DNA of 64,000 nt, from contig JAGYKX010000007.1 in the NCBI GenBank assembly GCA_018401115.1, positions 186,001 through 250,000 of the forward strand. The letters run 5' to 3'. Source of the DNA: Flavobacteriaceae bacterium. GTDB lineage: Bacteria > Bacteroidota > Bacteroidia > Flavobacteriales > Flavobacteriaceae. The position numbers and the translations under genes were made by a program. This document shows positions 19,503-40,597 of the stretch, in pieces; the stretch's first letter is position 1, and each line of letters starts with the position of its first letter. The notes beneath the pieces were generated by a model, which was not told the origin of the DNA, ran no database searches, and saw nothing but the letters and a program-made list of their open reading frames with translations.

Positions 19503-19514
19503 TTACTCTACCGT
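19503..19514 (-). other. Remnant of the original glmS 3' end
   Basis: On the minus strand these 12 bases read ACG GTA GAG TAA, that is Thr-Val-Glu-stop, the end of GlmS. They have been cut off from the rest of the gene, which now ends at 40525. The last two bases (GT on the plus strand at 19513-19514) are the shared crossover dinucleotide. This identifies the insertion point and orientation of the element exactly. Confidence 0.88.
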
Positions 19515-19560
19515 AACAAAGTATTCTCCAACGGGTAGTGTTTTTCTCATTATTAAGGTA

Positions 19561-19848
19561 ATGTTCAAGTCCTCAAACCTTTGGGTCTCCCCATACTCCC
19601 AATACCAACAGGAGTTATTTTCTATTATTCGATCCCAACATGAAGAACAGGGGAAGAACTTCGTGGAGATCTGTGATTATCTTGTTTCCAACGGTTATAA
19701 ATCCCCCCGGGGGAAGGATCTGACCCAGTCCCATGTGTGGAGTATCTACAACAAAAAGAAGAAGTCCATCCAACGGTTCAGTAGGGTATTTGACCCGGTG
19801 ATTACCGATGTTAAGTTGGATCTCCTTAATTACTTCCCTCAAGAGTGA
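19561..19848 (+). CDS. Small HTH-like protein (recombinase-domain type), intact left copy
   Basis: 95 residues. The central part (EICDYLVSNGYKSPRGKDL followed by TQSHVWSIY) looks like the helix-turn-helix module of the 'Recombinase' domain in large serine integrases, where similar NGYxTPRGKxWT motifs occur. The frame is also open upstream through the attachment site. In the excised circle it would be the in-frame C-terminal continuation of the large recombinase at 38888. Whether it is made as a separate protein in the integrated state is unknown, since its upstream DNA is then chromosomal. The right copy is frameshifted. It converges with, and overlaps by 10 bases, the resolvase. Confidence 0.6.
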   Translation: MFKSSNLWVSPYSQYQQELFSIIRSQHEEQGKNFVEICDYLVSNGYKSPRGKDLTQSHVWSIYNKKKKSIQRFSRVFDPVITDVKLDLLNYFPQE

Positions 19849-20461
19849 ACCATTTGAAGGTCTTCCCTGGTCTTTTTGACCTTAACAATGGTGGTTCTAC
19901 TACAGGGAACAATCTTGGAGATCTCATCGTAGGTGTAACCTTTATCGATGTACTCCAATATCTTCTTTGACTTTGGTTTCTTCAGGAGTTTGGTGGGAGT
20001 ATCTCTTGTATTGATTCGTCTCCCCCGGTATAACCCTTTCTCCTTTCTAATACGGATTCCCTCCATCTGTCTCTCTCTGATCTGATCCCTCTCAAACTTG
20101 GATAGGGTACTTAGAATGGAGATCATCAGTTCTGAGAACTTATCCACCTTACCATTTTCATCAATGTTTTGAAGAGATGGGTTCTTACAGATGATTCTTA
20201 TACCCTTTTCGGTTAGATCCTTCCAAGTGGATAGAACATCAATGGTGTTCCTTCCTAATCTATCAATACTATGTACATGTAGTTCTTTGAGTTTCCCCAT
20301 TTTATGAGTTTTTCAATCTCTGACCCCTTGGGTCTCTCATATAATAACGTGGAACCAATACAGGTGTCCATGAGGACATAATCGTACTGATCCTTATCTA
20401 CGATCTGTCGATCAACCTTCTGATTTATGGAGGTTGAAATACGGGTGTATAATACTTTCAT
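19839..20461 (-). pseudogene. Small serine recombinase, left copy, frameshifted
   Basis: Same gene as the intact 207-residue copy at 37681-38304, but a C run (minus-strand G run) at 20295-20298 has four bases where the right copy has five. The frame therefore breaks after about residue 58 (KLIKWG), giving a 68-residue N-terminal fragment with the catalytic Ser, and a separate C-terminal frame. The rest is nearly identical to the right copy. The break lies in a homopolymer, so either recent decay or slippage-based variation could explain it. Confidence 0.88.
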
Positions 20462-20466
20462 TGTTA

Positions 20467-20507
20467 TACCAGTTTATGGGTGGTGTATATATTCATTAAA
20501 ACTGGTA
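20467..20507. promoter_or_regulatory. 41-bp dyad upstream of the resolvase, left copy
   Basis: Arms taccagttt / aaactggta flank 23 bases just before the resolvase start. The dyad is conserved in the right repeat (37635-37675). Its size and place suit a resolvase/invertase crossover site or an operator; this is inference. Confidence 0.45.
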
Positions 20508-20824
20508 CAAATATAATGGTTTTACTGTGATAAACAAGATAACTATCTGGTACAGAAAAGAGTACACTATAATATTAAACTTTGTCTGCCGTATGGAATT
20601 GGGATCGGGAACCTGAATGTTATGATCGGACAGGTGAGATTTTAATCGGCATAGAAATATGAGATTAGACTCTGGTAATGTGGTTAATCAATATATATTG
20701 TACTCCCCCCCGGGATGGGTTCCCCCCGGTATCCCCCCTTAAATGTTGGTGAAACGGTGATATTATAATGGGGGTCAATACCGTCTGAAAAATATTCTGG
20801 AAAAAAATGGAAGAAATATGGGGT
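20508..20824. other. Non-coding part of the left repeat arm with a C-rich tract
   Basis: No gene is seen here. The stretch contains a C-rich tract (about 20705-20740) with runs of seven, six and six C, the mirror of the G-rich tract at 37404-37437. Most of the base differences between the two repeat copies fall in 20560-20650. A 15-codon stub (ATG at 20807, reading MEEIWGLLVVGY then QTN-stop) is the cut-off start of the membrane protein gene seen intact at 36826-37335. Confidence 0.6.
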
Positions 20825-23800
20825 TTACTGGTGGTTGGGTACCAAACTAATTAAATTATATATCCTCAAAAACTCTTCCCACTCTTGTTTATTTAATGAT
20901 TCAGGTTTTAACAATCTATATGATAGGGATGGTTCTAAGTCTTTCATCCTCACCATGACCCTTGTTTTATACAATTCACAAGACATTGTCGTTCCCGATA
21001 ACATGTAGGTATCAGGTGATGGTTTTATATCCTTATTGAACTCAAAAGTTCTGTCATAAGAATGGAAATCATCTACATCATTAATTGAAATGAGATTTTT
21101 CCCCGCATCTTCTTGAAAAAGTGATAGATGATATCCGACTGACTTGGAAATCTCTCCCTCGTAACTCAGAACCCATAATAGTCTTTCAATAGAATTATTA
21201 CAGTTTACCAATCCCTTGTCTACAATCTTCGAGATTGGTAATTGGTCAATAAGTTTCAGAGTTCCTCTATACTTACCCTTATCTAAGAATAAATTATCCT
21301 TCTCTCCTTTCTCAAAATTTAAAACGTCAGTCCACGAAAGAGACCAATGTCTAATATTTGGTGTTTTTCCTATTGACTCTCTGATATCAATATCATCATA
21401 AAATCTAAGGTGTTCCTTGGAAGCATGGTAAGTATATCCATCCAAATAGATTGACATGTCCTTGAATGACATCAACTCATTTAAATCATCAATGATTTGA
21501 CCATTTCTGACTAATTCAATACACTTAAAATAGAAATCTGTTCGAGTCGAAATCTCTACCCCGTCCTTTTCACCAAGACTAACTTGTGGTCTTATCAGAT
21601 ACGTAACGGAACCATTGTTAATTGGAAGAGTCAATTTGTAAACTTGTATTCCGTCCTCCTTGAGTTCTTTATATTTTAAATTCTTTTGAGGATGAATCTC
21701 TACGTAGTTTTTAATCGCATAGACGAATTTAGATTCAAGTTCACTCTCTTCTATCATCCCTGTCTTAGTTAGGGAAGAAATTCCTTGGTTTACTTCTTCC
21801 CAATCCTTAGAGGATCTAACTATTTTCCCAAAGAGGTGTTCAGCGTGTTCTCTACTTAATTCGTCTCTGATGTATTGATTAGAATAAGATAGTATACAAC
21901 GATAACAACCGTCCTTTCCTTCATCCTTACAACTGCAATCTCTTATTGATTCATAAGATTTGGTCAATAACTCGGTGAATTCTGTAGGATCAAATAGTTT
22001 TTGGAGATAACCTGTACCTCCAGGAACTTTGTCAAACATTACTAAGTACCTATCAAATCTACCTGTTGATTTATTATGTTCTGAGTAAAATTCAAACCCT
22101 ATATGAGATGGATTCCCCTTGTAGTATTTCTTAAGTCCAAGTTCAAGACCTGACTTGAACATTAATTGAGTAGACTCATTTTGAAACTCTTGAACAGGTA
22201 AAAGTATCTTTAGAGACTCTGTCTTTACCTTTCTGTATAGGTATACCTCTTTGAATATGTCGTTCGGTAAACCTGAATAATTTGTTTCCTTGTGTTTACA
22301 ATATCCGTAATGGAACTTCTTCTTTTCAAAGTTTATTACCTCTCGTGGTTTAGATGTGGATTTCCCACAATTTATACAAGTAACAAATCCATGTCTTGGG
22401 ACTTCCTCTCTTTGATTAATTGTAATATGGTTAGAATCTAACTCATTTGATCCCAAGTTGATTTTCGTTATTTCAACGTCTTTAACAAACTCAATTCCAA
22501 AAGGGATTTTCTTCATTCCCCATGTTCCTTCAATTGAATTTGTGTCAAAATCAAAATGAGTTGAGATATTATAATACTCTGAAAGTCTATCATCTTTTGA
22601 GTCATCAAGAACAGATTCATTTCTTGTGTTTATAGACTTAACAGATTTTAATATCGCAAAATCATGAACGTTGGATTCGGAAAAGAAAGAGTCATGTTCA
22701 CATTTTGGACACCCTTTAGATCTATCTCGTGTTTTGGAAAGAACATCTTCTTCAATAAAATCACAATTTGAACAGAATCTCATTTTAGTAAGTGTCGATC
22801 TTTCTCCACTCCAATCGAATGTATTGAGACCTGAGATGTTAAGTTTGTTCCCTTGTGAATAGAATGCATTATCGGGAGCAAATTCACTCAGTGCTGCGGT
22901 TGATGATCTTACGATTTCATATTCCTTTCTGACTGGTTCTCTTTCTCCACCCTCAGGTTTGAATCCGTATACCTGTGCTTTGAGAGTCACCCCTGTTTCA
23001 GGAAACGCATAGTTCGGTAGAATTCCCTCATTAGTCAAATATTCGAGGGTCAGTTTATTTTCAATTGATTTTCTAAAGGACCTTAAAGACTTTTGTTCAG
23101 AAACCAATTCAATTCTCTCTTGGTCATCCTTTCCAAGATTGTTTTCCTTGATATAGTTGTCGATGTCTTGTTCCTTATTGCGAATAAAGTGTAATTCATG
23201 TTTGAGTTCTTCAAACACTCTAACCATCCTTTGTTGGAAACTACCTTGACGAACAGACGTTTTTATTTCCTCGAAAATCTTTGTATCAACTTTTCCATCG
23301 TAAATTTTTATAAACCGTTCAAAGAGATCTTTTTGATAATCAAATACAAAATCTAAGAGTTGATTGACAAAGAAATCAAGACTGGTAAGTTTAATCCCGT
23401 ATAGGTTGAGATTTTTTATGAAACCGGGTATATGATGTTTTTCAGGGTCTTGTTTCGTCCAACTATCAATACAGAACGCAGTAAAATGACGAAATAATAT
23501 ATCCTTTGCATTTAAGAAACACCCGGGTGTATTGATATCTCCATCCATCATCTCTAATGGGTCTTGGAAATAATATAAGTCATGTTCTTTCCCTTGACTG
23601 AAGTTGACGATCAAGGCAGATCCTGAAGATCTTCCCGCTCGACCCACTCTTTGAAGAAAGTTAGATGTAAGTGGAGGAATACTCGTATTAATAGCACTAT
23701 CTAGGGATCCAACATCAATACCCATCTCAAGAGTAGATGTTGCCACCAAAGAATTTAAGGAGTTAAACCTTGGTCTCTCTTTAAAATCGATTTCAATATT

Positions 23801-26800
23801 CTCCCTAACCTTTCTTTCAAGAACTCCCGTATGTTCGGATGAATAAATTCGAGGAGAGTTTGTCCTGTTATAGACGAGGTTATAATAGTTAAAATTGGTT
23901 CTTTCAAATGATTTATAATGTCCTGAACATTTGTAATTTAAACAAGACCCTCCCTCAAACGAATTCTCCTCATCAATGATATGAAGTGTTGATGAACATT
24001 CAGAACACTCGTAGTTACTCAGATTCTTAGACACAAAAATCTGTTCAGGACTAATTACATAATTAGATCCATCTTTTGACTTTCCTTCACTTAAAATCCC
24101 TACTGATTCCAAATTTTCAAATAGAAGAGTGAAGAATTCGTTAAACACCGCAGAGTTCTCAGGGACCTGTTGAAAGGATTTTCTCAAATATGTATGAAAC
24201 CAGTTAGATGTCCTTGCATAAGTGGTGTCTAGTACGGCTCTTGAGTGAGGTATCGTACACACCAATTTTGGAATTCTTGATTTGGGGTGGTAATTCCTAT
24301 TTAGGAAGTGTCTTCCATCTCTCATCCAATTGAGATCCCATAGTTTTAGATCACTGTTTCTAAACTTGGATAAATATTCATGATCCACACCCCCACGTAG
24401 TCGAATACGGTGAAGAATTCCTATTACAAATCTTGTGAACTCTTCTTTATTTACGGTTTCCATAAGATTGGATTTCATCCAATCAGACATTTGATCAAAA
24501 GAGGATTGAATTAAAGAAGAATCAAACCCAACCGATGACGAACCTGTTTTTTCTAATGTTCGACCGATCATACCATTATATCCGAACTCAGAAACTACCT
24601 CCCATGAAATTCGAGTGTCAAATTCATTCTCAAAACTCTTAGAAATTTGATTGGTTGTAATGTTTCTATAATCTTCTATTTCGGCTTTACCCATGTAGTC
24701 AGAAGGGAAGAATCTATAGAAGTACGCTTCTCTATGGTCAGTGTTAGACGGGTCTGAATGGGACTTCCAATAATCAATGAATTTCTTTGTTAACCCATCA
24801 ATTGATATTGGCCCATCTTGTTTGTTGATTACCTTTTGAAGAGATGTCCTAAAGGTGAATCGGTAATTTCTTGCTTCAATGAAACCTGACTGATGAGCGG
24901 CATCCTGAACTCCATTGGTGAAGGCAAGAACCTTTCTATATTTTTCATCTCTTTCATCTAAATCCGAAGAGAGAATTTGACTTGTAGTAATAGAATTTAA
25001 CGTTGACACTCGAGTACCAATAATACTCATTGAGTTTTGAGTATTACACTCAGGACAGACGTGTTGACCCTTCTTGTCTTTCACCTTTCTGTATGCAACA
25101 ACATGAACTCTTTGATCTGAATCTTGATCCCCAAACTTTAGGTCAGACTGATGAACATAGGGAGTAATTGATGTCTCAGGTTCATATTCATCAACACAAA
25201 AGTGTTTATTCTCATAAGTGTTTACAAAGTATATGTTCTTGTGATTAGTAAAATAATGTTCATAGACTTCGAGTGGATCTACTTCGAACTGATTTCTGTT
25301 ATCATGTTTGATTGCTAACCATCCACTTGAACCACATTCTCTACAGTAATAAGGAGGTAACGCTACAGGATCTTCTTTGGGAGATAACTTGTCTCTCCAC
25401 GTAAATTCAGGTTGATCAGAAACTACTCTTACCAATCCACTTAATTCCCTAATCCATATCTGAACTTGTAGAAATAAGAATGGAAATCTTTCTTTAGGAT
25501 CTGACTTTGCCTCGGCAATCAGGGCGAGAATAGAAGTAATGATCTCCTCCTTTGGTGAGAACTGACCTTCATCAAAGTAATCTGGTAATTGATTGAATGA
25601 TGGGTTACTTTCATTTAGACCCTGTAGTAAAGTGGTAAGAGAAACGATTTTGTCAGAACAAACCGAAGAAATGTCTTTAACGATTTTCAGTTTCTTAAGT
25701 TCCTTTGAGAGATCATATTTCGAGGTAGTTTCAGGTATCTGCCACAATCTCTTCTGACGAAGAATGTAATCTGAATAATTCTCGTTAACTCCCAATCTAC
25801 TCTGTTGAATGCCAACTAACCTTGGAATATATGAGTCCAACTGATCATCTTTGATGGTGAAGAATTCTCCGGGGGATAAACGTTGTTCAGTAATCACACT
25901 ATCTGATCCGAAGTCTTCTCCAAATACATCTGAGGCAAATTCAGTAAGAAGTTTCACTGAGTCTTCTCCTTTACCTATTGTTGCGGATGTACCTACGGGA
26001 CACAGATGTCCTTTAGAAAGGTTTAGTTTTAGTTTAAGTCTACGAATCAAGTTCGCTACATCCGTTCCTTGAGCACCATCGTAGGTGTGTAATTCATCAA
26101 GGATTAAAAACTGAAGAAGTTCAGGATTATCAAAGTTGTAATTCCAAAGATTGTGAAACTGATGTCTCATCAATCCGTAATCCAACATTTTGAAGTTGGT
26201 TAATAGAATATCAGGTGGGTTCGATATAATCTCCTCTCTGTCCTCAATGATGTTAACTTCCCCCATCTTCTTTGGGAACTTCCCTTTGTTTTTTCCTTCT
26301 CCAATAAAAAGTCCTGCGGTTACGGAACCATTGAGACGGGAATCTTGGAATATCGTTTCTGCGAGTCGTTTTGCTTGGTCTGTTGCCAGGGCATTCATCG
26401 GATAAAGGATAATCACCTTAATTCCTTGTTGATCTCTTTTCTGATAACAATAATCCAATACGGGATAGAGAAAAGACTCTGTCTTTCCTGACCCTGTGCC
26501 TGTCGTCAAAAGGGTGGGTTGTGGTTTGTGTCCATTAAGTGAGGAAAGTCTCTTAAAACTCTCATATTGGTGTTTATAAGGAGGAAAGTTAGGTTTGATG
26601 TCCAATGGGATGGATTCACTTTCATCATTCGTCTTAAATGGTAATTTCAAAGACACATACGGTCCTTTGAACATTCCATGTTCTTCGTCTTGAATGAAAC
26701 CATAAAAGGAACCTGAAGTCTCTCTTTCTTTGAAACTAAAGGTTGCCCTGATGTACTCAAGGATAGACTGTTTTACTTCAAATGCCTGTTGTAGTGGTAA

Positions 26801-26803
26801 CAT
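20825..26803 (-). CDS. Giant DEAD/DEAH helicase with DUF1998 module (DrmA/DrmB-like, one polypeptide)
   Basis: 1,992 residues. Helicase motifs: Walker A TGTGSGKT (101-108), DELH box (236-239), GTSATIG, and motif VI QRVGRAGRS near 1055. Cys pairs suggest several zinc knuckles: CRECG ~485, CPEC ~583, CSEC ~930, CSNC/CPKC ~1345, CINCG ~1478. The DUF1998 signature is DKVPGGTGYLQ then CSCKDEGKDGCYRC (~1625). A C-terminal domain has TRTDFYF (~1753) and YLDGYTYHAS (~1788), like degenerate Vsr/MTES-type nuclease folds. In class 1 DISARM the helicase (DrmA) and DUF1998 (DrmB) functions are separate genes; here they are joined. It overlaps the methylase gene by one base. Its last five codons lie inside the inverted repeat. 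Confidence 0.87.
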   Translation of the reverse strand: MLPLQQAFEVKQSILEYIRATFSFKERETSGSFYGFIQDEEHGMFKGPYVSLKLPFKTNDESESIPLDIKPNFPPYKHQYESFKRLSSLNGHKPQPTLLTTGTGSGKTESFLYPVLDYCYQKRDQQGIKVIILYPMNALATDQAKRLAETIFQDSRLNGSVTAGLFIGEGKNKGKFPKKMGEVNIIEDREEIISNPPDILLTNFKMLDYGLMRHQFHNLWNYNFDNPELLQFLILDELHTYDGAQGTDVANLIRRLKLKLNLSKGHLCPVGTSATIGKGEDSVKLLTEFASDVFGEDFGSDSVITEQRLSPGEFFTIKDDQLDSYIPRLVGIQQSRLGVNENYSDYILRQKRLWQIPETTSKYDLSKELKKLKIVKDISSVCSDKIVSLTTLLQGLNESNPSFNQLPDYFDEGQFSPKEEIITSILALIAEAKSDPKERFPFLFLQVQIWIRELSGLVRVVSDQPEFTWRDKLSPKEDPVALPPYYCRECGSSGWLAIKHDNRNQFEVDPLEVYEHYFTNHKNIYFVNTYENKHFCVDEYEPETSITPYVHQSDLKFGDQDSDQRVHVVAYRKVKDKKGQHVCPECNTQNSMSIIGTRVSTLNSITTSQILSSDLDERDEKYRKVLAFTNGVQDAAHQSGFIEARNYRFTFRTSLQKVINKQDGPISIDGLTKKFIDYWKSHSDPSNTDHREAYFYRFFPSDYMGKAEIEDYRNITTNQISKSFENEFDTRISWEVVSEFGYNGMIGRTLEKTGSSSVGFDSSLIQSSFDQMSDWMKSNLMETVNKEEFTRFVIGILHRIRLRGGVDHEYLSKFRNSDLKLWDLNWMRDGRHFLNRNYHPKSRIPKLVCTIPHSRAVLDTTYARTSNWFHTYLRKSFQQVPENSAVFNEFFTLLFENLESVGILSEGKSKDGSNYVISPEQIFVSKNLSNYECSECSSTLHIIDEENSFEGGSCLNYKCSGHYKSFERTNFNYYNLVYNRTNSPRIYSSEHTGVLERKVRENIEIDFKERPRFNSLNSLVATSTLEMGIDVGSLDSAINTSIPPLTSNFLQRVGRAGRSSGSALIVNFSQGKEHDLYYFQDPLEMMDGDINTPGCFLNAKDILFRHFTAFCIDSWTKQDPEKHHIPGFIKNLNLYGIKLTSLDFFVNQLLDFVFDYQKDLFERFIKIYDGKVDTKIFEEIKTSVRQGSFQQRMVRVFEELKHELHFIRNKEQDIDNYIKENNLGKDDQERIELVSEQKSLRSFRKSIENKLTLEYLTNEGILPNYAFPETGVTLKAQVYGFKPEGGEREPVRKEYEIVRSSTAALSEFAPDNAFYSQGNKLNISGLNTFDWSGERSTLTKMRFCSNCDFIEEDVLSKTRDRSKGCPKCEHDSFFSESNVHDFAILKSVKSINTRNESVLDDSKDDRLSEYYNISTHFDFDTNSIEGTWGMKKIPFGIEFVKDVEITKINLGSNELDSNHITINQREEVPRHGFVTCINCGKSTSKPREVINFEKKKFHYGYCKHKETNYSGLPNDIFKEVYLYRKVKTESLKILLPVQEFQNESTQLMFKSGLELGLKKYYKGNPSHIGFEFYSEHNKSTGRFDRYLVMFDKVPGGTGYLQKLFDPTEFTELLTKSYESIRDCSCKDEGKDGCYRCILSYSNQYIRDELSREHAEHLFGKIVRSSKDWEEVNQGISSLTKTGMIEESELESKFVYAIKNYVEIHPQKNLKYKELKEDGIQVYKLTLPINNGSVTYLIRPQVSLGEKDGVEISTRTDFYFKCIELVRNGQIIDDLNELMSFKDMSIYLDGYTYHASKEHLRFYDDIDIRESIGKTPNIRHWSLSWTDVLNFEKGEKDNLFLDKGKYRGTLKLIDQLPISKIVDKGLVNCNNSIERLLWVLSYEGEISKSVGYHLSLFQEDAGKNLISINDVDDFHSYDRTFEFNKDIKPSPDTYMLSGTTMSCELYKTRVMVRMKDLEPSLSYRLLKPESLNKQEWEEFLRIYNLISLVPNHQ

Positions 26804-31491: not shown

Positions 31492-34319
31492 ATGTTGTAG
31501 AATGCGGATATTACTTTGATGTATGCATCTTGTTCCAATCCAAATAGGTCTTGAACGTATTGACTTGACGAGTTCGCGATGGTACTTACTTCATTCAACT
31601 CTTTCTCCTTACTCTTGATCGCAAAGTTGGATTCAGAACGGTCTTGAAACTTAATTTCAATCTGATTAAAAGAGGTTTTCTTCCATTTTTCAAGTTTGGT
31701 TTCAAACTCATCCAATTTTTCCCACATGGTTGATTCAAGTTGTTTTTGAAGTGGTTTCATGTGATTTTCCTGAGCGTAGGAAACGATCTGTTTTAAATCT
31801 CTCTCAAGAATTGAATTGTCCGTGTCTGAGACGGTTTTAGTATAAAGAGTGTCACTTATGTTGTAATGAGACAAAAAGTCTCTTAGAGACAAGGAAATGA
31901 GGTCTCCTGAGGAGTTCTTCCGTACTACAAAGAAGTCCGATATTATGGGTTGTCCTAAATTGTTCGAAACCTGTCCGTGTAGAATGTAATTCACTTCTCC
32001 TTTTGGAATCTGATCTAACTTAACTGATCTTGCCTCATTCTTTGGAACACTTGCTTCAAGTTTTGTAATGTAGTATTTGATTAAGGGATGGATTTCATAT
32101 AAAATTTGAAACTCTGCCCAATCACCTTTTTTCTTCCTCGCCTTTTCAATGGACTCTTGGACTAAGTCTTTGTCAGTAGTTAATTTGAAAAACTCTCCAA
32201 TCTTGGGTTTCGATTCGGGTGGAAGATCGTAAAGTACATTATTGATTTCCTTCGTGTTAAACAATTCCAAATAGGAGTCTTCTTTATGGAACTGATAATC
32301 TCCTTTTGATATCAAACTCTTCGACTCTAATTGTTGGAAGAGTTCGTCATAGAAATCGGAATCGTTATTGTAAATACTGATAGTTTCCATGATAGGATTA
32401 TCAGTAATTATAGATTCTGTTGAATCGTCACCTCCGAATAGTTTTAGGTAAAAATCATCTTGATTTTCATCGAGATAGTTTTCATCTTGATTTAATAGTG
32501 CCTCTTCAACGTTGTTCTCCTCTTGTTTGGAATCGTAGAGATTCATTACCGACCCTGCATCACCAAGAGATTTGTATACCTCTTCTTCCTTCTCGGTTAA
32601 TCGATTGATTATATGAAGATCTGTTTTTAATCCCTCAATGTTGGAAGTAGATAATAAGTAGTAGATGAATGGGGTGTTCTTTTGACCATATCTATCAATC
32701 CTACCATTTCTTTGTTCCAAAGTGATTAATGACCAAGGAATATCGTAGTTAAACATACGATTACAGAAGAAATGTAGGTTTACCCCCTGAGAACCAGCAT
32801 CAGAACACAACAACATTCTTATTTTACTGTCTTTCTTTCCAAAATCTTCAATAATTTGTTGTTGTTCTATGTCACTTTGAGATCCACTGAATGAGACAAT
32901 TGAATCTTCACTCAAATTGAAATCCTCAGTTAATCTTTTTTTCAGATATTCAAGTGTTGCGATTCGTTCTGAGAACAACACATAACGATCATCACCACTT
33001 TTCCCTGACCATTTTAATTCCTTGAGTTGATCTTTAAACTTATTATACTTTGAATCTGAATCATTCTCTAAGATTTGTTCCAATAGAGATTTACAGTCAT
33101 TTAGAACTGAAATATTCTCATCCATAGAGTCAGACTTAACTCCTAAAGAACTTACTCTGTCTATTCTATTATTAATTGATGATAGTGCCGCTGCGGGGGA
33201 TGACATGAAGGATTTGAATATCATAATCGAGAAGAGAAAATCTCTTTTCTCATTCCCTTGTTTCAAACTATTAAGTCCTTGAAGTTTTAAATCTTGTTGA
33301 AATTTTAGAAAGGAGACTTCGTCATTAGTTAACCCCGTTTCAACTCTAACAATCTCCCTTTCCTTAAAATTATCCCTAACGGAAGATTCTTTAATATCAT
33401 TCTTAAACCTCCTAACATAATACGGAAGTATATCCTCTTTTGTGTAATCCCCATTTTTTGGAATAGCAATAGGATCAATCATATTGATCAGGTTGGCAAA
33501 ACTTTCCTTACGTCCGTTATGGGGTGTGGCAGAAGTCAATATCAAAGACTCACACTTGGTAGAGAGGTAATTTGCTAAGTCTCCTCTTTGGGTTGAGATA
33601 TTTGAAACCGTGTGACATTCATCAATCACTATGATATCCCAATTAGACTTCTCTATATAATGTTTGAATTTGGCATTATTCTTCAGAGTATCAATTGAGA
33701 TAATGGTCTTATCGTAATAGTCAAAAGGATTCTTATTGGCAGGCAACTCTGATTTAATCTTTGAGATACCTTCACTGTCCAACCTTACCAATGGGATCGC
33801 AAATCGATTCCATATCTCTTGTTGGAATTGAGAAAGAATTGATTTTAAAGCAAGAACCATAATACGTTTTCCTTTCCCTCTTTTGATCATCTCAGAAAGG
33901 AAGATTCCAACTTCAACCGTTTTACCCAGTCCAACCTGATCGGCAATTAATAGTCTCGGTCGGGGAAGTTGTAAAGACTTAAGAGTAGGTTCTAATTGAT
34001 ATTCAGAAAGATTAAACGCACCCTTGGATGCAATGGTTATTTTATCTGAGAAGACCGTTGAGTTTCGGATTTGAGACTCTATGAATAATTTGGTTTCTCT
34101 GTAGTTTGGGGATGTGTCTCCAACGAATTTTGTATTTGATGGATCAACGGGTTTGATATCCTTATCAATAGAGGTGTCAAAAGTGAATCTCTTACCTTTC
34201 ACCAAATCATTTATTCCTTCTACATCAAGGATAAACGATCCGTCGTGATTAGTATGGATGTTCGTGATGAGAAAATCTTCCCCTCTTGTAGATATACGTT
34301 GTCCTATGGTTAGGTTCAT
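31488..34319 (-). CDS. SNF2-family helicase/translocase, DrmD-like
   Basis: 943 residues. Walker A is ADQVGLGKTVE (~120) and the DEAH-type box is VIDECHT (~230). LILTSATPHNG is motif III and LEQRNGRIDRYGQKN is motif VI (~537), all typical of SNF2/RapA-like double-stranded DNA translocases. The N-terminus (IGQRISTRGEDFLITNI) resembles the small beta domain that opens DrmD proteins. The C-terminal ~350 residues are helical with an EKWKK-rich coiled coil near the end. It is the first structural gene after the XRE regulator, overlapping it by four bases. DrmD with DrmMI defines class 1 DISARM. Confidence 0.88.
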   Translation of the reverse strand: MNLTIGQRISTRGEDFLITNIHTNHDGSFILDVEGINDLVKGKRFTFDTSIDKDIKPVDPSNTKFVGDTSPNYRETKLFIESQIRNSTVFSDKITIASKGAFNLSEYQLEPTLKSLQLPRPRLLIADQVGLGKTVEVGIFLSEMIKRGKGKRIMVLALKSILSQFQQEIWNRFAIPLVRLDSEGISKIKSELPANKNPFDYYDKTIISIDTLKNNAKFKHYIEKSNWDIIVIDECHTVSNISTQRGDLANYLSTKCESLILTSATPHNGRKESFANLINMIDPIAIPKNGDYTKEDILPYYVRRFKNDIKESSVRDNFKEREIVRVETGLTNDEVSFLKFQQDLKLQGLNSLKQGNEKRDFLFSIMIFKSFMSSPAAALSSINNRIDRVSSLGVKSDSMDENISVLNDCKSLLEQILENDSDSKYNKFKDQLKELKWSGKSGDDRYVLFSERIATLEYLKKRLTEDFNLSEDSIVSFSGSQSDIEQQQIIEDFGKKDSKIRMLLCSDAGSQGVNLHFFCNRMFNYDIPWSLITLEQRNGRIDRYGQKNTPFIYYLLSTSNIEGLKTDLHIINRLTEKEEEVYKSLGDAGSVMNLYDSKQEENNVEEALLNQDENYLDENQDDFYLKLFGGDDSTESIITDNPIMETISIYNNDSDFYDELFQQLESKSLISKGDYQFHKEDSYLELFNTKEINNVLYDLPPESKPKIGEFFKLTTDKDLVQESIEKARKKKGDWAEFQILYEIHPLIKYYITKLEASVPKNEARSVKLDQIPKGEVNYILHGQVSNNLGQPIISDFFVVRKNSSGDLISLSLRDFLSHYNISDTLYTKTVSDTDNSILERDLKQIVSYAQENHMKPLQKQLESTMWEKLDEFETKLEKWKKTSFNQIEIKFQDRSESNFAIKSKEKELNEVSTIANSSSQYVQDLFGLEQDAYIKVISAFYNI

Positions 34320-34516: not shown

Positions 34517-34606
34517 CTGAGAACTTTTAGAGTACAAACATAATCAATTAAACCTATAGTTTAATATATTATTGCATGTAAGATTGAATTTCACTAAATT
34601 GCGAAC

Positions 34607-36001
34607 ATGAAAATTACAGTTTCAGAGATAGTCATAAGTGAAGTTAACAAGGAGATTTATTCAATGTCATCCATTGATGAATTGATGGAATCCATTCGTA
34701 TTGTTGGTCTCCTACAAAAACCTGTAATCAATATCAAAACTAACAACCTACTCTCGGGTCACAGAAGAGTGGAAGCGGTATCAAGGTTAGGTTGGAAGGA
34801 AATAGATGTAGATACAATCGAGATTGAAGAAGAAGATGAGATATTATATCTGATTCACTATAATCAAACTCGTGTTAAATCGGTTTTTTCAATTCTTAGA
34901 GAATATGATTTTCTTAAGAAGTACTACAAGGACAATAAATCTAAATTAGGGTTGAAGGGTGTAATCCTTAGAGGTGTTATTGCGGACGATCTTAAGATGA
35001 GTGATGGTCAACTAGCACGACTCTTAAAAATCAGAAATGATTCACCAGAATCAATCGAACTGATAGACAAAGGTATTCTCTCAATCAATCAAGCATACCT
35101 ACTGACTCAAAGGAATACAATTGAGAAGAAGTCAAAACAAGTTGTCTCAAAAGACTGGGACTCTAGTTCAAATAGTGAAGACTTTCGTTTTTATCAAAAA
35201 TCCTCAGAAGATATGAGTGAACTGAATGATGAAGAATGTGATGTTATTCTAACAAGTCCACCTTTCTATCGATTGAGATCATATTCAGATAATGATGTGT
35301 TAGGAAATGAACAATCACCGGAGGAATTCATTAATAACCTAGTTGATCATATTCATAATGAATGTTGGAGGGTGTTAAAAAACACTGGTAGTTTTTTTCT
35401 TGAGTTGAAAGATTCATACATAAATGGTAGTTTACAGAATATTCCTCACCGGGTGGCAATTGAGTTGAATAAAAGAGGATGGGTCCAAAGGAATAGTATT
35501 GTGGCTCGTAGGTTGAATCCCAAACCTTCCAGTTCTAAAAGTAATTTGACAACAACATATTCAATGTTGTTTCATTTTACTAAAACAATGAATTACCATT
35601 ATCAATTAACTAGAACAAAAATCTCCTCTAATACGAAGCCCAGTCACGCACCTCGACATAGGACAATTGGAAATGAAACTTACTTATCCAGTTCACCATA
35701 TATTCCAAATAAATTAGGAAAGAACACTGGTGATTTCTTGGATAAGGATATACTTTCAGTAGCAGTATCAAATCAAAAATATTCAAATGATTTTCAACAT
35801 CCTGCTCAATTCCCGGAACAACTGGTATGGTTTATCCTCAATTCAGTTGCGTATTTACCTCATTTGGGAACCAATTATCAACCAGTAGTACTTGATCCAT
35901 TTGCTGGGGCATTAGGAGTATATAAAGGTATTCAAGTGTTTAATTCCAATTTGAATACTAGTATCAAATTCATAGGATATGATATTAAGAAATGGTTCTA
36001 G
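34607..36001 (+). CDS. ParB-like domain fused to a beta-class DNA methyltransferase
   Basis: 464 residues. Residues ~1-100 form a ParB/Srx-like domain (SSIDELMESIRIVGLLQKPV, LLSGHRRVEAVSRLGW). A helical segment follows (SDGQLARLLKIRNDSPESIE) like the ParB HTH. The methyltransferase part has motif IV first, CDVILTSPPFYRLRSY (~217), and motif I last, VLDPFAGALGVYKG (~430). That order is the beta class; TSPPF suits N4-cytosine or N6-adenine. It is divergent from the XRE-led operon and was probably acquired with it. No matching restriction gene is adjacent, so it may be a solitary methylase or a second protective mark for the defence system. Confidence 0.85.
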   Translation: MKITVSEIVISEVNKEIYSMSSIDELMESIRIVGLLQKPVINIKTNNLLSGHRRVEAVSRLGWKEIDVDTIEIEEEDEILYLIHYNQTRVKSVFSILREYDFLKKYYKDNKSKLGLKGVILRGVIADDLKMSDGQLARLLKIRNDSPESIELIDKGILSINQAYLLTQRNTIEKKSKQVVSKDWDSSSNSEDFRFYQKSSEDMSELNDEECDVILTSPPFYRLRSYSDNDVLGNEQSPEEFINNLVDHIHNECWRVLKNTGSFFLELKDSYINGSLQNIPHRVAIELNKRGWVQRNSIVARRLNPKPSSSKSNLTTTYSMLFHFTKTMNYHYQLTRTKISSNTKPSHAPRHRTIGNETYLSSSPYIPNKLGKNTGDFLDKDILSVAVSNQKYSNDFQHPAQFPEQLVWFILNSVAYLPHLGTNYQPVVLDPFAGALGVYKGIQVFNSNLNTSIKFIGYDIKKWF

Positions 36002-36375
36002 TTTGAATAAAGCAGACCAATAGTTCTCTATGTATTAAAATACACTCAACTCACCTGATGAACTTCTTGAGACCAGATCCAACCATTGGTATTCCCCCAT
36101 ATCTCAATTATAAACATCAACCTTTTTTGTAGATGGTACGTTTTCACCGATATGCCTTCCTTTTATTTCAAGGATTCAGTTATTTCCACCATTAAGATCC
36201 CTACTCTCGCTCCGTGTCGGTTATACCCTTGGGACGATAGTTTTCCTTTTTCTGTCGGAAAACCTACACTAATAAATACGTGAAAAAAAGTTCAAAGTAA
36301 AGTGTACATCAAAAAAATGTTTACATACGTATGACACTTTTCTGTTTATCAGAATACTTATAGTAAAAAGAAATT
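36002..36375. other. Gene-free stretch with an operator-like palindrome
   Basis: I see no credible gene in these 374 bases; a 65-codon plus-strand frame at 36086-36283 lacks any recognisable feature. The 3' part holds aaagtgtaca and gacacttt arms around the palindrome catacgtatg, directly upstream of the RHH gene. Confidence 0.5.
36297..36341. promoter_or_regulatory. Candidate operator of the RHH protein
   Basis: The perfect 10-bp palindrome catacgtatg (36324-36333) sits between outer arms aaagtgt and acacttt, 42 bases before the RHH start codon. RHH proteins commonly repress their own genes through such short palindromes. Confidence 0.4.
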
Positions 36376-36555
36376 ATGAGAGATAATTTGAATAAAACAG
36401 TTGTAGTAAGAATAACTGAGGAACAGTTTCTTCAACTCCAAAGAAGTATTCTTAATGATAAAACATCAATGTCTCAGGTAATTCGAGAAGCATTGAAAAA
36501 TAAACTGAACAAAATAGAAATCGATGATATCAGGAAAAGAAAAATTAGACATTAA
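36376..36555 (+). CDS. 59-residue ribbon-helix-helix (CopG/Arc-type) protein
   Basis: Begins MRDNLNKTVVVRITEEQFLQ: the strand TVVVRITEEQ followed by two helices (LQLQRSILNDKTSMSQV, IREALKNKL) is the RHH fold, with a short basic tail (IRKRKIRH). Such proteins act as repressors, antitoxins or accessory factors of mobile elements. The next frame overlaps its 3' end by 32 bases, an arrangement seen in toxin-antitoxin pairs. An excisionase-like (directionality factor) role for the serine recombinase is also possible. No evidence decides between these. Confidence 0.7.
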   Translation: MRDNLNKTVVVRITEEQFLQLQRSILNDKTSMSQVIREALKNKLNKIEIDDIRKRKIRH

Positions 36556-36742
36556 CTATTGGTGTAAACATATACCAATGGACATTGAAATTACCCCTTG
36601 GGAGCGTAAACAGTTAAATCAATATTTTATAGATGACCTGAAAATGCCGAGGGAATATAAACTTGATTTTAGTTGTGATCAACTAAAAATAATAATTGAT
36701 TACAGTAGGAAAAATGATTATAATTTGTCGGGGTTGAACTAA
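36524..36742 (+). CDS. Small protein of unknown function downstream of the RHH gene
   Basis: Up to 72 residues; an internal Met at 36578 would give 54 residues beginning MDIEITPWERKQLNQYF and avoid the overlap with the RHH gene. Composition is ordinary, soluble and charged (LKMPREYKLDFSCDQLKII), with no motif I recognise. Its placement just after an RHH gene raises the possibility of a toxin partner, but no known toxin signature is visible. Confidence 0.45.
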   Translation: MISGKEKLDINYWCKHIPMDIEITPWERKQLNQYFIDDLKMPREYKLDFSCDQLKIIIDYSRKNDYNLSGLN

Positions 36743-36825
36743 CATTCAATCTTTAGAGAAAACTCAATAATCTCATATTATTATTCTTAGATCCCAATTT
36801 TAAGAAATATGTTTTCAGTTGGGAA

Positions 36826-37335
36826 CTATACCTTGTAACGAACAAGACGTCTTTTCTTTAAAATTCTATGGATTGAATTAAAATTTGAGGTTGCGTAAAT
36901 CTTAGCAGAATATTCAAGGGGATTATTATCATATCCAACTAACCTATCATACAACTGATACACACTGTAAGACCCCCTAACTGACTTTGAAACATATACA
37001 CTATGATGTAATTCTTCGATTAAAGTAAGTGTAAATGAATATACAGAGTCTGTCGATAGAATGAATAGTGATATGGAATGATTTGAGGGATGATAAACAC
37101 CCTTTAGGTCATTATTCTTGGTATAATCAAATAAGATAGATGGTCTTTTAATCTTAATTCCAAAGTCATTTTCTATGTATTCAATGATACAGGTATAAAC
37201 TTCATACTTGTCATCACAAACATCATCAATTTCGTAGATATGTTGTGGAATAATTAATGGAATTAAAATAAGCACAATAGTGACCCCTACGACAACCCAG
37301 TACCCAACCACCAGTAAACCCCATATTTCTTCCAT
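36826..37335 (-). CDS. Membrane-anchored protein with a degenerate zincin-like motif
   Basis: 169 residues. An N-terminal transmembrane helix (VVGVTIVLILIPLIIP) precedes a soluble domain. TLTLIEELHHSVYV followed ~30 residues later by NNPLEYSAKIYA resembles minimal zinc peptidases with HELxH and a distal NPxE motif, but the first His of HExxH is Glu here. Activity is therefore doubtful. The first 12 codons (MEEIWGLLVVGY) lie within the inverted repeat, so a stub of this gene also exists at 20807. Function unknown; a link to the defence operon is not shown. Confidence 0.6.
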   Translation of the reverse strand: MEEIWGLLVVGYWVVVGVTIVLILIPLIIPQHIYEIDDVCDDKYEVYTCIIEYIENDFGIKIKRPSILFDYTKNNDLKGVYHPSNHSISLFILSTDSVYSFTLTLIEELHHSVYVSKSVRGSYSVYQLYDRLVGYDNNPLEYSAKIYATSNFNSIHRILKKRRLVRYKV

Positions 37336-37680
37336 TTTTTTCCAGAATATTTTTCAGACGGTATTGACCCCCATTATAATATCACCGTTTCACCAACATT
37401 TAAGGGGGGATACCGGGGGGAACCCATCCCGGGGGGGAGGACAATATATATTGATTAACCACATTACCAGAGTCTAATCTCATATTTCTATGCCGATTAA
37501 AATTTCACATGTCCGATCATAACATTCAGGTACTTGATCCCAATTCCATACGGCAGACGAAGTTTAATATTAAAGTGTACTCTTTTCTGTACCAGATAGT
37601 TATCTTGTTTATCACAGTAAAACCATTATATTTGTACCAGTTTTAATGAATATATACACCACCCATAAACTGGTATAACA
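37336..37680. other. Non-coding region of the repeat with a G-rich tract and dyads
   Basis: No gene is seen. The plus strand has G runs of six (37404-37409), six (37415-37420) and seven (37431-37437) in otherwise AT-rich DNA, a possible G-quadruplex or strong stem. TACCAG occurs at 37590-37595 and again at 37635-37640, opposite CTGGTA at 37670-37675. These probably serve resolvase binding or transcription control. Confidence 0.5.
37635..37675. promoter_or_regulatory. 41-bp dyad upstream of the intact resolvase
   Basis: Arms taccagttt / aaactggta are identical to those in the left repeat copy. The dyad ends 5 bases before the resolvase ATG at 37681. A crossover (res/inversion) site or autoregulatory operator is likely, but not shown. 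Confidence 0.5.
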
Positions 37681-38304
37681 ATGAAAGTATTATACACCCG
37701 TATTTCAACCTCCATAAATCAGAAGGTTGATCGACAGATCGTAGATAAGGATCAGTACGATTATGTCCTCATGGACACCTGTATTGGTTCCACGTTATTA
37801 TATGAGAGACCCAAGGGGTCAGAGATTGAAAAACTCATAAAATGGGGGAAACTCAAAGAACTACATGTACATAGTATTGATAGATTAGGAAGGAACACCA
37901 TTGATGTTCTATCCACTTGGAAGGATCTAACCGAAAAGGGTATAAGAATCATCTGTAAGAACCCATCTCTTCAAAACATTGATGAAAATGGTAAGGTGGA
38001 TAAGTTCTCAGAACTGATGATCTCCATTCTAAGTACCCTATCCAAGTTTGAGAGGGATCAGATCAGAGAGAGACAGATGGAGGGAATCCGTATTAGAAAG
38101 GAGAAAGGGTTATACCGGGGGAGACGAATCAATACAAGAGATACTCCCACCAAACTCCTGAAGAAACCAAAGTCAAAGAAGATATTGGAGTACATCGATA
38201 AAGGTTACACCTACGATGAGATCTCCAAGATTGTTCCCTGTAGTAGAACCACCATTGTTAAGGTCAAAAAGACCAGGGAAGACCTTCAAATGGTTCACTC
38301 TTGA
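37681..38304 (+). CDS. Small serine recombinase (resolvase/invertase family), intact copy
   Basis: 207 residues. MKVLYTRIST places the catalytic Ser at residue 9; the conserved core continues with HVHSIDRLGRNTIDVL and STLSKFERDQIRERQMEGI. The C-terminal HTH is KGYTYDEISKIVPCSRTTIVKVKK, as in Tn3-type resolvases and DNA invertases. It lies within the long inverted repeat next to a dyad that may be its site. Since the two repeats are inverted, its likely outcome is inversion of one arm of the element rather than deletion. The left copy is frameshifted, so this is the only functional one. Confidence 0.9.
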   Translation: MKVLYTRISTSINQKVDRQIVDKDQYDYVLMDTCIGSTLLYERPKGSEIEKLIKWGKLKELHVHSIDRLGRNTIDVLSTWKDLTEKGIRIICKNPSLQNIDENGKVDKFSELMISILSTLSKFERDQIRERQMEGIRIRKEKGLYRGRRINTRDTPTKLLKKPKSKKILEYIDKGYTYDEISKIVPCSRTTIVKVKKTREDLQMVHS

Positions 38305-38581
38305 GGGAAGTAATTAAGGAGATCCAACTTAACATCGGTAATCACCGGGTCAAATACCCTACTGAACCGTTGGATGGACTTCTTCTTTTGTTGTAGATAC
38401 TCCACACATGGGACTGGGTCAGATCCTTCCCCCGGGGGGATTTATAACCGTTGGAAACAAGATAATCACAGATCTCCACGAAGTTCTTCCCCTGTTCTTC
38501 ATGTTGGGATCGAATAATAGAAAATAACTCCTGTTGGTATTGGGAGTATGGGGAGACCCAAAGGTTTGAGGACTTGAACAT
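38295..38581 (-). pseudogene. Small HTH-like gene, right copy, frameshifted
   Basis: Counterpart of 19561-19848. A T run (minus-strand A run) at 38386-38389 has four bases against five in the left copy, so the frame changes after WSIYNK and ends early in unrelated residues. The frame is continuous upstream through attP into the recombinase 3' end, giving a 180-residue minus-strand frame from 38884. That composite frame shows how the two parts would fuse across an intact attP. Confidence 0.75.
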
Positions 38582-38611
38582 TACCTTAATAATGAGAAAA
38601 ACACTACCCGT

Positions 38612-38646
38612 TGGAGAATACTTTGTTACAGTGGAATAGGCGGCAG
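38612..38646. other. Intact attP (inverted), core GT at 38628-38629
   Basis: On the minus strand the site reads ...cctattccact-GT-aacaaagtattctcc. The left arm matches the glmS-joined site at 40535 and the right arm matches the site at 19513. The three sites agree only in GT at the exchange point, as expected for a serine recombinase with a 2-bp overlap. An unrecombined attP inside an integrated element is unusual. Confidence 0.82.
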
Positions 38647-38887
38647 ATATCCGGGTTGATTTCCCCGTATTTACTGAGGTTTTCAAGTGTTTTATCACCA
38701 AAGGTGTACTACTAGGGTTCCCCGAATTTGTGGTGGAATTGTGTAGAGGAATCTTAAGGGTGGTGTTAAGGTCGTGGGTCTGATCAGTGTGATTGTAACT
38801 GAGGTCTACTCGATATAGAATCAACTGTAGGAGTTCTCTTTTTAAATCCCCCTCCCAATTCTCAATACCACAGACATAATTCACTAT

Positions 38888-40597
38888 ATGGAAACATTAC
38901 ACATACTAACGAGAGTGAGTACAACAACTCAAACTGAAGAGAAAGGAGGAACAAGTCTATCTACCCAAAGAGAAAAAGGAATTGAACTTTCTAAATCTCT
39001 TGGTATGAGATACGAAATACATAACGAAGGAGGTACATCTTCATCAACTGACAACTTAGAAACTCGTCCTGTACTCCTACAGTTACTAAGACGAATAGAT
39101 AAAGGTGAAATCAAACACCTATATGTATGGAACACCGATAGATTATCCCGTAATACATCTACTTGGTTTCTGATTAGACAGAAGATGGTTAAACGTGGAG
39201 TCGTACTCTACACTTCAACTGGTAAATATGACACCACCGGAGACATGGAAAACCTGATCTTAGGAATCCTCTCCGAAATTTCTCAGTACGATAATAAGAT
39301 CCGATCCGAAAGAAGTAGACTTGGAAAACTTGAAAAGGTAAAGTCCAACTACTACAGAGGAGGAGACCCTCCGTTTGGTTATCAAATAAAGAAATTGGAT
39401 AAGGGTTCATTATTGGAACCACACCCTGAAGAATCAAAACACATAATGACAATCTACTCCCTTTATCATCAAAGTTATTCGATTAAGGAAATTAAGAACT
39501 ACTTAGAACACCAAGGAGTACAAACACGAAGAGGAAACAAACATTGGTCTCTAGGATCAATACAAGTTATCCTTCGAAATGAATGTTACATTGGTAAACA
39601 ATCCTTCACAGACAAGAAAAGTGGGTTTACCATTGAATACACTTGTCCACCATTGATCTCAAAACAACTCTTCAATGAGGTAAAGGATATTCGAAAACTC
39701 AAATTGGAAAAGAGAGGTCAGTTCAATAGAACAACAAGATCATTTTTGTTTAGGGACTATATTTTCTGTAGTTGTGGAAGACCAATTGGAGGACGAGTAA
39801 AAGAGACTCAGGATGTAAATCACTACTACTGTCCATTAAGTGAACGGAGGTTTAACATGTCAGTTGAGAAGAGTCTGAACTGTGATATGAAAAGGTGTCT
39901 TAATATCCCTACCACAGACGATTTCCTATGGAACTCTATTTTTAATACACTTAAAGACAATAGATATTTATCACATGAATCTAAGACTCTGTTGAAATCA
40001 GACATAGTTGAATTCCGTAACATCATTGGACAACAACTTAACGACATTGAAAGTAGACTCATTCAGTTGGAACAACGAAAGGAAAAAATTAAGAACAGTC
40101 TTGTAGAAGTTGAAAAAAGACAACTGTATGGTGAATACGAAGGTTCTGATGTTTATGAGTCACTTAAAAAGTCATTGAATCATGATTTAGATGAAGTCTC
40201 TGTGGAAATCGACCATTTAAAAGGTCTACAGAAAATAGATTCTGATCACAAAAAGTGGTACAACAACTACAAATTGATAGTGAATTATGTCTGTGGTATT
40301 GAGAATTGGGAGGGGGATTTAAAAAGAGAACTCCTACAGTTGATTCTATATCGAGTAGACCTCAGTTACAATCACACTGATCAGACCCACGACCTTAACA
40401 CCACCCTTAAGATTCCTCTACACAATTCCACCACAAATTCAGGGAACTGTAGTAGTACACCTTTGGTGATAAAACACTTGAAAACGTCAGTAAATACAGG
40501 GAAATCAACCCGGATATCTGCCGCCTATTCTACTGTGACGCTTTTCGCTAAGTTTCTAGGTTGGTCTACATTACAATCTCTAAGTACTGCAATATGA
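38888..40597 (+). CDS. Large serine recombinase (integrase) whose 3' end contains the attachment site
   Basis: 569 residues in the integrated state. Resolvase domain: TRVSTTTQ with catalytic Ser11 and WNTDRLSRNTSTW. Recombinase domain: GGDPPFGYQIKKLDKG and EHQGVQTRRGNKHWSLGSIQ. Zinc ribbon: CSCGRPIGG and YYCPLSE; then a coiled coil (~residues 375-450). The attachment core GT lies in codon 550. Residues 552-569 (LFAKFLGWSTLQSLSTAI) are read from antisense glmS. In the circle the frame would instead run KYSPTGSVFLIIKV into the 95-residue HTH-like module, about 660 residues in all. The ATG abuts the inverted repeat, so its promoter must lie within the repeat. It is the probable integrase. Confidence 0.93.
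   Translation: METLHILTRVSTTTQTEEKGGTSLSTQREKGIELSKSLGMRYEIHNEGGTSSSTDNLETRPVLLQLLRRIDKGEIKHLYVWNTDRLSRNTSTWFLIRQKMVKRGVVLYTSTGKYDTTGDMENLILGILSEISQYDNKIRSERSRLGKLEKVKSNYYRGGDPPFGYQIKKLDKGSLLEPHPEESKHIMTIYSLYHQSYSIKEIKNYLEHQGVQTRRGNKHWSLGSIQVILRNECYIGKQSFTDKKSGFTIEYTCPPLISKQLFNEVKDIRKLKLEKRGQFNRTTRSFLFRDYIFCSCGRPIGGRVKETQDVNHYYCPLSERRFNMSVEKSLNCDMKRCLNIPTTDDFLWNSIFNTLKDNRYLSHESKTLLKSDIVEFRNIIGQQLNDIESRLIQLEQRKEKIKNSLVEVEKRQLYGEYEGSDVYESLKKSLNHDLDEVSVEIDHLKGLQKIDSDHKKWYNNYKLIVNYVCGIENWEGDLKRELLQLILYRVDLSYNHTDQTHDLNTTLKIPLHNSTTNSGNCSSTPLVIKHLKTSVNTGKSTRISAAYSTVTLFAKFLGWSTLQSLSTAI
40277..40534. repeat. Short arm of the split repeat (258 bp, recombinase 3' end)
   Basis: Inverse copy of 38630-38887 with several substitutions, for example in the codons giving GNCSSTP here and GNPSSTP there. 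It encodes residues ~464-549 of the recombinase. With 19513-20842 it forms the second 1,588-bp repeat when the element is circular. Confidence 0.9.
40519..40552. other. Hybrid attachment site at the glmS side, core GT at 40535-40536
   Basis: The left half (cgcctattctact) comes from the element and the right half (gacgcttttcgct) from glmS. Read on the minus strand the element half supplies ACA GTA GAA TAG (Thr-Val-Glu-stop), in place of host ACG GTA GAG TAA, which is now stranded at 19503-19514. Confidence 0.85.

Follow-up and report, generated by a model that had tools for sequence, protein, structure and literature searches.

A serine-recombinase island at the 3' end of glmS in Flavobacteriaceae, with attP and a recombinase C-terminal segment duplicated in mirror repeats

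Introduction

Serine integrases are usually described as one enzyme acting on one attachment site of the mobile element (attP), together with a separate directionality factor. What is to be made of an element that carries attP twice, in long repeats facing each other across its own recombinase gene? This question is raised by an element of about 21 kb next to glmS in a stretch of 64,000 nucleotides from a Flavobacteriaceae bacterium (GenBank assembly GCA_018401115.1, contig JAGYKX010000007.1, positions 186,001 to 250,000), which we call the window; the source genome is a draft in 8 contigs. The element belongs to a clade of islands that departs from the usual description, with attP doubled in mirror repeats and placed inside the integrase gene, and with a spare copy of a C-terminal segment of the integrase. 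We consider it reasonably probable that this is a glmS-targeting serine-recombinase island whose duplicated attP repeats permit integration through either attP, and in which inversion between the repeats toggles the integrase between a truncated and a full-length form. If this is true, the control of direction would be encoded in the layout of the DNA.

Inverted repeats and attachment sites

The reverse complement of 37300-38887 (1,588 bp) matches, over its full length, 40277-40534 (258 bp) followed by 19513-20842 (1,330 bp); the 1,589 alignment columns contain 14 substitutions and 2 single-base gaps (99.0% identity). An inverted match of this kind is too long to be due to chance. An earlier note on this DNA had proposed two inverted attP repeats, the second of them split at a GT core into arms of 258 and 1,330 bp; the alignment agrees with its repeat coordinates to the base, and the attachment-site junctions together with the alignment bear out the split. 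Elsewhere in the 8 contigs of the source genome, a single further match to the repeat was found, of 289 nt at 69% identity, inside another small-resolvase gene.

19513..20842, + strand: repeat A, outer part, 1,330 bp, with the attP right half, the recombinase C-terminal segment, resolvase copy A and the outer end
40277..40534, + strand: repeat A, inner arm, 258 bp, recombinase codons 464-549
37300..38887, - strand: repeat B, intact, 1,588 bp
38607..38634, - strand: attP of repeat B, a conserved 28-nt pattern
19504..19540, + strand: attL, the attB half of the chromosome joined at GT to the attP right half
40525..40550, + strand: attR, the last glmS codons and stop, supplied by the element
40525..42372, - strand: glmS, the target gene, 615 aa

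Comparison of attL (...CTACCGTAACA...) and attR (...CTACTGTGACG...) with the intact attP (...CCACTGTAACA...) shows that repeat A is interrupted at GT. The insertion lies in the last codons of glmS, at its 3' end, and the C-terminus of GlmS remains AKSVTVE because the element brings its own last glmS codons; the outer flanks, once joined, restore the normal end of the gene. In a genome of the same genus (G701), a tonB-receptor gene and glmS have an uninterrupted site between them, and in G538 and G644 glmS immediately adjoins the tonB gene. With precise attL and attR at a conserved attB and an empty site in a relative, the window element is recognizable as an integrative island of Bacteroidota (Flavobacteriaceae and kin), site-specific for the 3' end of glmS.

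The recombinase gene and its detached segment

38888..40597, + strand: large serine recombinase as integrated, 569 aa, with the unique core 38888-40276, the repeat arm and an antisense glmS tail
19513..19848, + strand: detached recombinase C-terminal segment, copy A, 111 codons, frame open

The recombinase is of the large serine type, with matches to PF00239 (6.4e-22, residues 8-153) and PF07508 (7.9e-17, residues 180-270). Its best PDB match is YokA, over residues 15-491, and its best NCBIfam match is CcrB, N-terminal and far under the equivalog cut-off (76.7 vs 900 bits); the cut-offs of CcrA (43.3 vs 700 bits) and CcrC (42.4 vs 900 bits) are likewise not reached.

As integrated, the open reading frame (ORF) continues 20 codons beyond the core site into antisense glmS (549 + 20 aa). 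Beyond attP, the recombinase frame stays open for 111 codons, as seen in copy A; attP therefore lies inside the gene, and integration removes a conserved 111-codon C-terminal segment. Integration swaps the last 111 codons of the recombinase for a short antisense-glmS tail, as in the split integrases of the Mx8/SSV type, in which attP lies within the integrase gene and the 3' end changes on integration. By addition, the full-length protein would have 463 + 86 + 111 = 660 residues. Having two repeats, the integrated element keeps a spare C-terminal segment, in the second of them, and a spare attP.

The inner edge of repeat B (38887) directly adjoins the ATG of the recombinase (38888), so that the 258-bp arm (38630-38887 and 40277-40534) serves as C-terminal coding sequence at the 3' end of the gene and forms the upstream region at its 5' end. 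Since the arm lies at both ends of the gene, a transcript initiated within it would have complementary ends.

The Sin-like resolvase in each repeat

37681..38304, + strand: small serine resolvase, copy B, 207 aa, intact; best PDB sequence match Sin (2r0q)
19839..20461, - strand: small serine resolvase, copy A, frame shifted by a one-base homopolymer difference, leaving a 153-aa ORF at 19839-20300
37590..37680, no strand: putative resolvase site, inverted TACCAG-type motifs upstream of the resolvase, found by eye and weak

Kinship with Sin and beta extends over the whole resolvase (2r0q, E 3.2e-19, residues 4-197 of 207), and the score against the NCBIfam Mpi invertase model lies well under its equivalog cut-off (38.4 vs 272 bits). 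In copy A of the window, the C-terminal segment of the recombinase is open and the resolvase frame is shifted; in copy B the reverse holds. Sin and its relatives are chiefly resolvases, and the enzyme would most likely resolve multimers of the circle. It may also invert DNA between the repeats, by analogy with the beta recombinase of pSM19035, which, going by the title of a paper, reportedly inverts between inversely oriented six sites. The resolvase gene in each repeat, the position of attP inside the recombinase gene and the spare C-terminal segment had not been described in the earlier note.

Related elements

Counting the window, seven loci carry a large serine recombinase of about 48% identity or higher. 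Identity to the window recombinase is 96% in L008, 88% in L009 and L040, 92% in L010 (genome G719, partial), 48-49% in G454 and 48% in G1130. Inverted arms are directly visible in five of the seven (window, L008, L009, L040 and G454). Locus L008 shows 137 nt of an inverted arm up to the end of its contig; the arms of L040 (1,273 and 272 nt) are 100% identical; and those of G454 (1,253 and 462 nt), also identical, stand in a genome of 3,088,198 bp in a single contig, with a type I restriction-modification (RM) system and a second cargo block. G1130 retains a degenerate arm of 123 nt, about 89% identical. Both repeats of L040 and of G454 carry an intact resolvase of 206-207 aa, and in repeat B of L009, L040 and G454 both attP and the open C-terminal segment are intact.

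The recombinases of elements with repeats group together (6 rows, support 100/99) in a tree that leaves out the partial G719 sequence and in which the G754_2 row is a 315-aa fragment and G382 a long branch. The plan is kept across about 50% recombinase divergence, with differing cargo. The inverted attP repeats flanking a recombinase core and cargo are thus real and recur in relatives, including the single-contig genome. Relatives that consistently lack a second repeat, named beforehand as an outcome that would speak against the plan, were not found within the clade; the more distant G208 (about 30%) shows none.

The ratio of nonsynonymous to synonymous substitution rates (dN/dS) indicates purifying selection on the genes of the repeat. 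The segment beyond attP is open over 111 codons in all four copies compared (window A, L009 B, L040 B and G719 A), with a dN/dS of 0.13-0.20 over six pairs; window copy B was excluded because its frame is shifted in this segment. Over six pairs each, the values are 0.07-0.14 for the resolvase and 0.07-0.09 for the recombinase core. The window segment also aligns with segments beside attP in G454 and, weakly, in G208. The fold of the C-terminal segment is predicted with a mean predicted local distance difference test (pLDDT) score of 59.8, confident solely for a three-helix stretch (about residues 115-165 of the L009 ORF). Upstream of the resolvase, TACCAG-type motifs similar to those of the window were seen, by eye and weakly, in L009, L040 and G719.

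Six of the seven loci (window, L008, L009, L040, G454 and G1130) are in what we call state I, with the core pointing toward glmS and a truncated recombinase. In G719, the 258-bp arm lies next to glmS, and the recombinase core beyond the arm begins with its start rather than its end, so that the core is inverted relative to glmS in one of the seven loci. The second repeat copy is absent from that contig; another contig carries the left flank and a repeat half ending at the repeat edge.

Concerted evolution of the repeats

For arm 1, the identity within an element is 97.7% in the window, 98.5% in L008 (137 nt) and 100% in the two other pairs. In none of these four pairs is another element closer, with a narrow margin for window/L008 (at most 97.1%) and L040/L010 (98.4%). 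For arm 2, copies are 99.4% identical within the window element and 100% within L040, against at most 88.0% between elements; the G454 arms were compared only with each other. Repeat copies are thus more alike within elements than between them, which indicates concerted evolution.

The 14 substitutions of the window repeats are clustered at 165-255 and 1315-1448, and the clean run of 1,060 was matched in none of 200,000 random placements. Clustering of this kind is the pattern that gene conversion would leave. Since a crossover at a fixed site would be unable to homogenize the repeats, homologous recombination between them most likely takes place, and its crossovers would invert a segment.

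Proposed mechanism

In the excised circle, both repeats would be whole, and the recombinase would read full-length through an intact attP in either orientation of its segment. Either attP of the circle could then join glmS. Joining through the attP at the 3' side of the recombinase would give the truncated state I of the window; joining through the other attP, or a later inversion of the core by homologous recombination between the repeats, would give state II, as in G719, in which the recombinase points away from glmS and would be full-length if repeat B lies beyond. The proposal that either attP could integrate fits the inverted core of G719; this is one fragmented metagenome-assembled genome (MAG), and an inversion of the core in place would look the same. 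The distribution of six loci to one is compatible with equal use of both attP (two-sided binomial P about 0.13). Taken together, the loci suggest that islands with this plan may be able to invert segments of their own DNA and to give their integrase a different end.

A bolder version, which we put forward tentatively and regard as rather unlikely, is that the integrase reprograms itself: the repeats would act as an exon switch between the glmS-antisense tail and the 111-residue segment, and the orientation of the core would set the direction or activity of the enzyme in two integrated states.

Several observations weigh against the toggling island as we propose it. State I accounts for six of the seven loci, and state II may be rare or an artefact; it is known from a single fragmented MAG contig (G719) that ends inside the core, where a misjoin at the 258-bp repeat could have occurred. 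In the L040 contig (IMG/VR; L104 1-14246), the two ends form a perfect palindrome of 3,571 nt, each with glmS, a sign of trouble with repeats in assembly; either the assembler walked across the repeats or cargo in both orientations was mixed, and the contig was not counted toward flipping. Each repeat of the window holds one frame-breaking 1-nt difference in homopolymer length, in the resolvase in A and in the C-terminal segment in B, which represents decay or sequencing error. The C-terminal segment gave only sub-threshold Pfam matches, to PF07508 (two of the four ORFs searched and window copy B), and its predicted fold had no significant PDB match (E 0.001). G208, with a recombinase about 30% identical in an apparently complete element at glmS, shows no long inverted repeat. 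Finally, the circle, inversion within a strain and activity are predictions from assembled sequence.

Alternative explanations

The duplication may serve no mechanism at all. An ancestral accident, such as recombination between two elements at glmS or copy-back, could have left an inverted second attP end, with RecA-dependent gene conversion homogenizing the neighbouring copies ever since. In favour of this, gene conversion alone accounts for how alike the copies within an element are, G754 (at the L079 end) appears to be a case of different elements accreting at glmS, and G1130 has lost most of its second copy. The intact attP and open C-terminal segment in repeat B of L009, L040 and G454, and the persistence of the plan over about 50% recombinase divergence with different cargo, are harder to reconcile with it, and we find this explanation doubtful.

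A second alternative, which we hold to be unlikely, assigns the inversion to the Sin-like resolvase, acting as a programmed invertase that switches the phase of the recombinase segment or of the cargo at a site in the repeats, with homologous recombination merely homogenizing them. It draws on the intact resolvases in both repeats of L040 and G454, on Sin as the best PDB match, on the reported inversion by beta recombinase and on the motifs common to several elements upstream of the resolvase. These motifs were recognized by eye and do not define a site, Sin and its kin act mainly in resolution, the Mpi invertase model is far from its cut-off and the frame of window resolvase copy A is broken; moreover, the fixed-site crossover that this alternative requires would not by itself make the repeats alike.

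That an assembler duplicated or inverted one repeat, as the draft state of the source genome and the palindrome of L040 could invite, is extremely improbable, since the window copies differ at 16 places and the same plan is present in other MAGs and in the single contig of G454, which rules out an artefact as the whole explanation.

Comparison with known systems

The yeast 2-micron plasmid is a circle with two inverted repeats, each with a recombination site, and two unique segments; FLP is a tyrosine recombinase that acts on FRT and serves copy-number control in an autonomous plasmid. The window element, with its circle as predicted, shares this layout, and the comparison made in the earlier note is a formal likeness only. 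The window element is integrative and uses a serine integrase, and no replication family was recognized among its scanned proteins.

Staphylococcal SCC elements, with CcrA/B/C, likewise pair large serine recombinases with a site in the 3' end of a housekeeping gene, and CcrB is the best NCBIfam match of the window recombinase. Their target is a gene other than glmS, and the CcrB match is N-terminal, at 77 vs 900 bits; we know of no duplicated inverted attP repeats in them.

The plasmid pSM19035 replicates and has neither integrase nor attP. Like the window element, it associates a gene for a Sin-type serine recombinase, beta, with long inverted repeats, and going by a paper title beta acts on inversely oriented sites; Sin with its site resH (PMC2428073) belongs to the same comparison. 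For a two-part site of the resH/six type next to the resolvase gene, the window element offers only shared motifs, recognized by eye.

The integrase of Myxococcus phage Mx8 belongs to a different class of recombinases from that of the window. In Mx8, as in the window element, attP lies within the integrase gene and integration replaces its 3' end, which was reported to alter specificity, and a second inverted copy of attP is not described in the available part of that paper (PMC6070905). This precedent makes a functional difference between the two forms of the window recombinase plausible. Integration of the archaeal pTN3 likewise disrupts the integrase gene at attP; these SSV-type split integrases differ in being tyrosine recombinases with a tRNA target, and the available part of the source, which also mentions FLP/FRT inversion, describes no duplicated attP repeats (PMC5495485).

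Taken singly, the ingredients have been described before: integrases split by integration, plasmids that flip between inverted repeats, and islands with a serine recombinase. In full-text literature searches, no title or abstract opening among the matches listed describes duplicated inverted attP repeats, which is weak evidence of absence. The combination of attP and an integrase C-terminus duplicated as homogenized mirror repeats, not met among those matches, would be a new variant.

Distribution and other elements at glmS

The element is rare in the genomes sampled. Matches were found in 3 of 397 genomes of the family (E 1e-30) and 2 of 395 of the class (E 1e-60), its own genome included in both. 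Among 149 relatives of G454 (E 1e-40), only G454 itself and two of the kind with about 30% identity were found, and among 119 relatives of G1130 (E 1e-60), G1130 alone. Of the 395 genomes sampled from the order, 66 have a match at E 0.001; outside the element's own genome, the long matches do not exceed about 32% identity, and the rest are short ones to antisense glmS or to small resolvases. All 131 plasmid and 437 phage records matched in the respective collections lie below 60% identity (21-27% for the ten best of each), so no member of the repeat-bearing clade is among them. Scans of IMG/VR with P0002, P0004 and the 28-nt attP pattern returned the L040 record only, or no match. A viral origin of that record was rejected, as no viral structural gene was recognized among the ORFs inspected, nor among four sent to Pfam.

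Inverted repeats longer than 60 nt were found at none of 14 loci (12 places with small-resolvase relatives, the G719 left flank and G382) in stretches of at most 20 kb, a length at which more widely spaced repeats would escape. Four more distant recombinases (G208, G053, G008 and G136; 29-32% identical) adjoin or run into glmS. In G053, G008 and G136, no long inverted repeat was found in the stretches, whose contigs end about 2 kb past the recombinase, so repeats could lie beyond. G053 had appeared from BLAST strands to be in state II; its ORFs place it in state I. In the compact glmS element of G208 (L044 9031-13867), the detached C-terminal segment is the part nearer to glmS and the recombinase lies farthest from it, the reverse of the orientation in the window.

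At L079 16250-16434, in the MAG that contains L008 (G754), an L008-type element meets, at its left end, the apparent end of a second and different recombinase element, whose recombinase is 33% and resolvase 35% identical; elements seem to accrete in tandem at glmS. G702 holds a likely relic at the same glmS site (L088 9360-12694): part of a resolvase gene (73%) is present there, and of the recombinase the last 38 codons (79%) are matched, with no match to its core in the stretch. The islands of the clade also point to the 3' end of glmS as a hotspot in Bacteroidota for islands that combine a serine recombinase with defence-like cargo.

Cargo genes

20825..26803, - strand: 1,992-aa helicase, DruE-like, with its stop codon within repeat A
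26803..31491, - strand: 1,562-aa type IIG-like restriction-methyltransferase
31488..34319, - strand: 943-aa SNF2 helicase, DrmD-like, under the NCBIfam DrmD cut-off
34607..36001, + strand: ParB_N-like and N6_N4 DNA methyltransferase, ParB_N under the Pfam cut-off
36826..37335, - strand: 169-aa protein, function not assigned, with its start codon within repeat B

These annotations cover the larger ORFs of the element. The genes at 36826-37335 and 20825-26803 cross the borders between the repeats and the cargo, and an inversion of the cargo would leave them whole because the bases at both ends are identical. The idea that the cargo could flip while the recombinase is spared holds for these border genes, but integration itself removes the conserved C-terminal segment of the recombinase.

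The segment 20825-34319 is a three-gene operon that combines DruE-, type IIG- and DrmD-like proteins and may be an undescribed defence system. With respect to DISARM and Druantia, the NCBIfam DrmD equivalog cut-off is not reached (323 vs 610 bits), and the other matches are DruE-like and IIG-like only. No replication family was recognized among the window element proteins scanned, which gave only weak, sub-cut-off matches of ParB or partition type, in the methyltransferase gene.

Beyond the window, cargo is described for L040, G454 and G1130; in L008, L009 and G719 it lies off the contigs. L040 carries type I HsdR and HsdM/S instead, and has, by eye, a similar 167-aa ORF at the position matching the 169-aa gene. 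In G454, a type I RM operon with Orf5/HEC-06-like genes stands beside the recombinase, and the other segment holds a PDC-M60A-like protein and a 1,402-aa protein without a PADLOC match. G1130 has one cargo-sized gene (825 aa), with sub-threshold matches only. Relatives of the window methyltransferase (34607-36001) are situated close to small resolvases at 3 of 14 other loci (L078, L079 and L084), so the two genes may be a recurring island pair.

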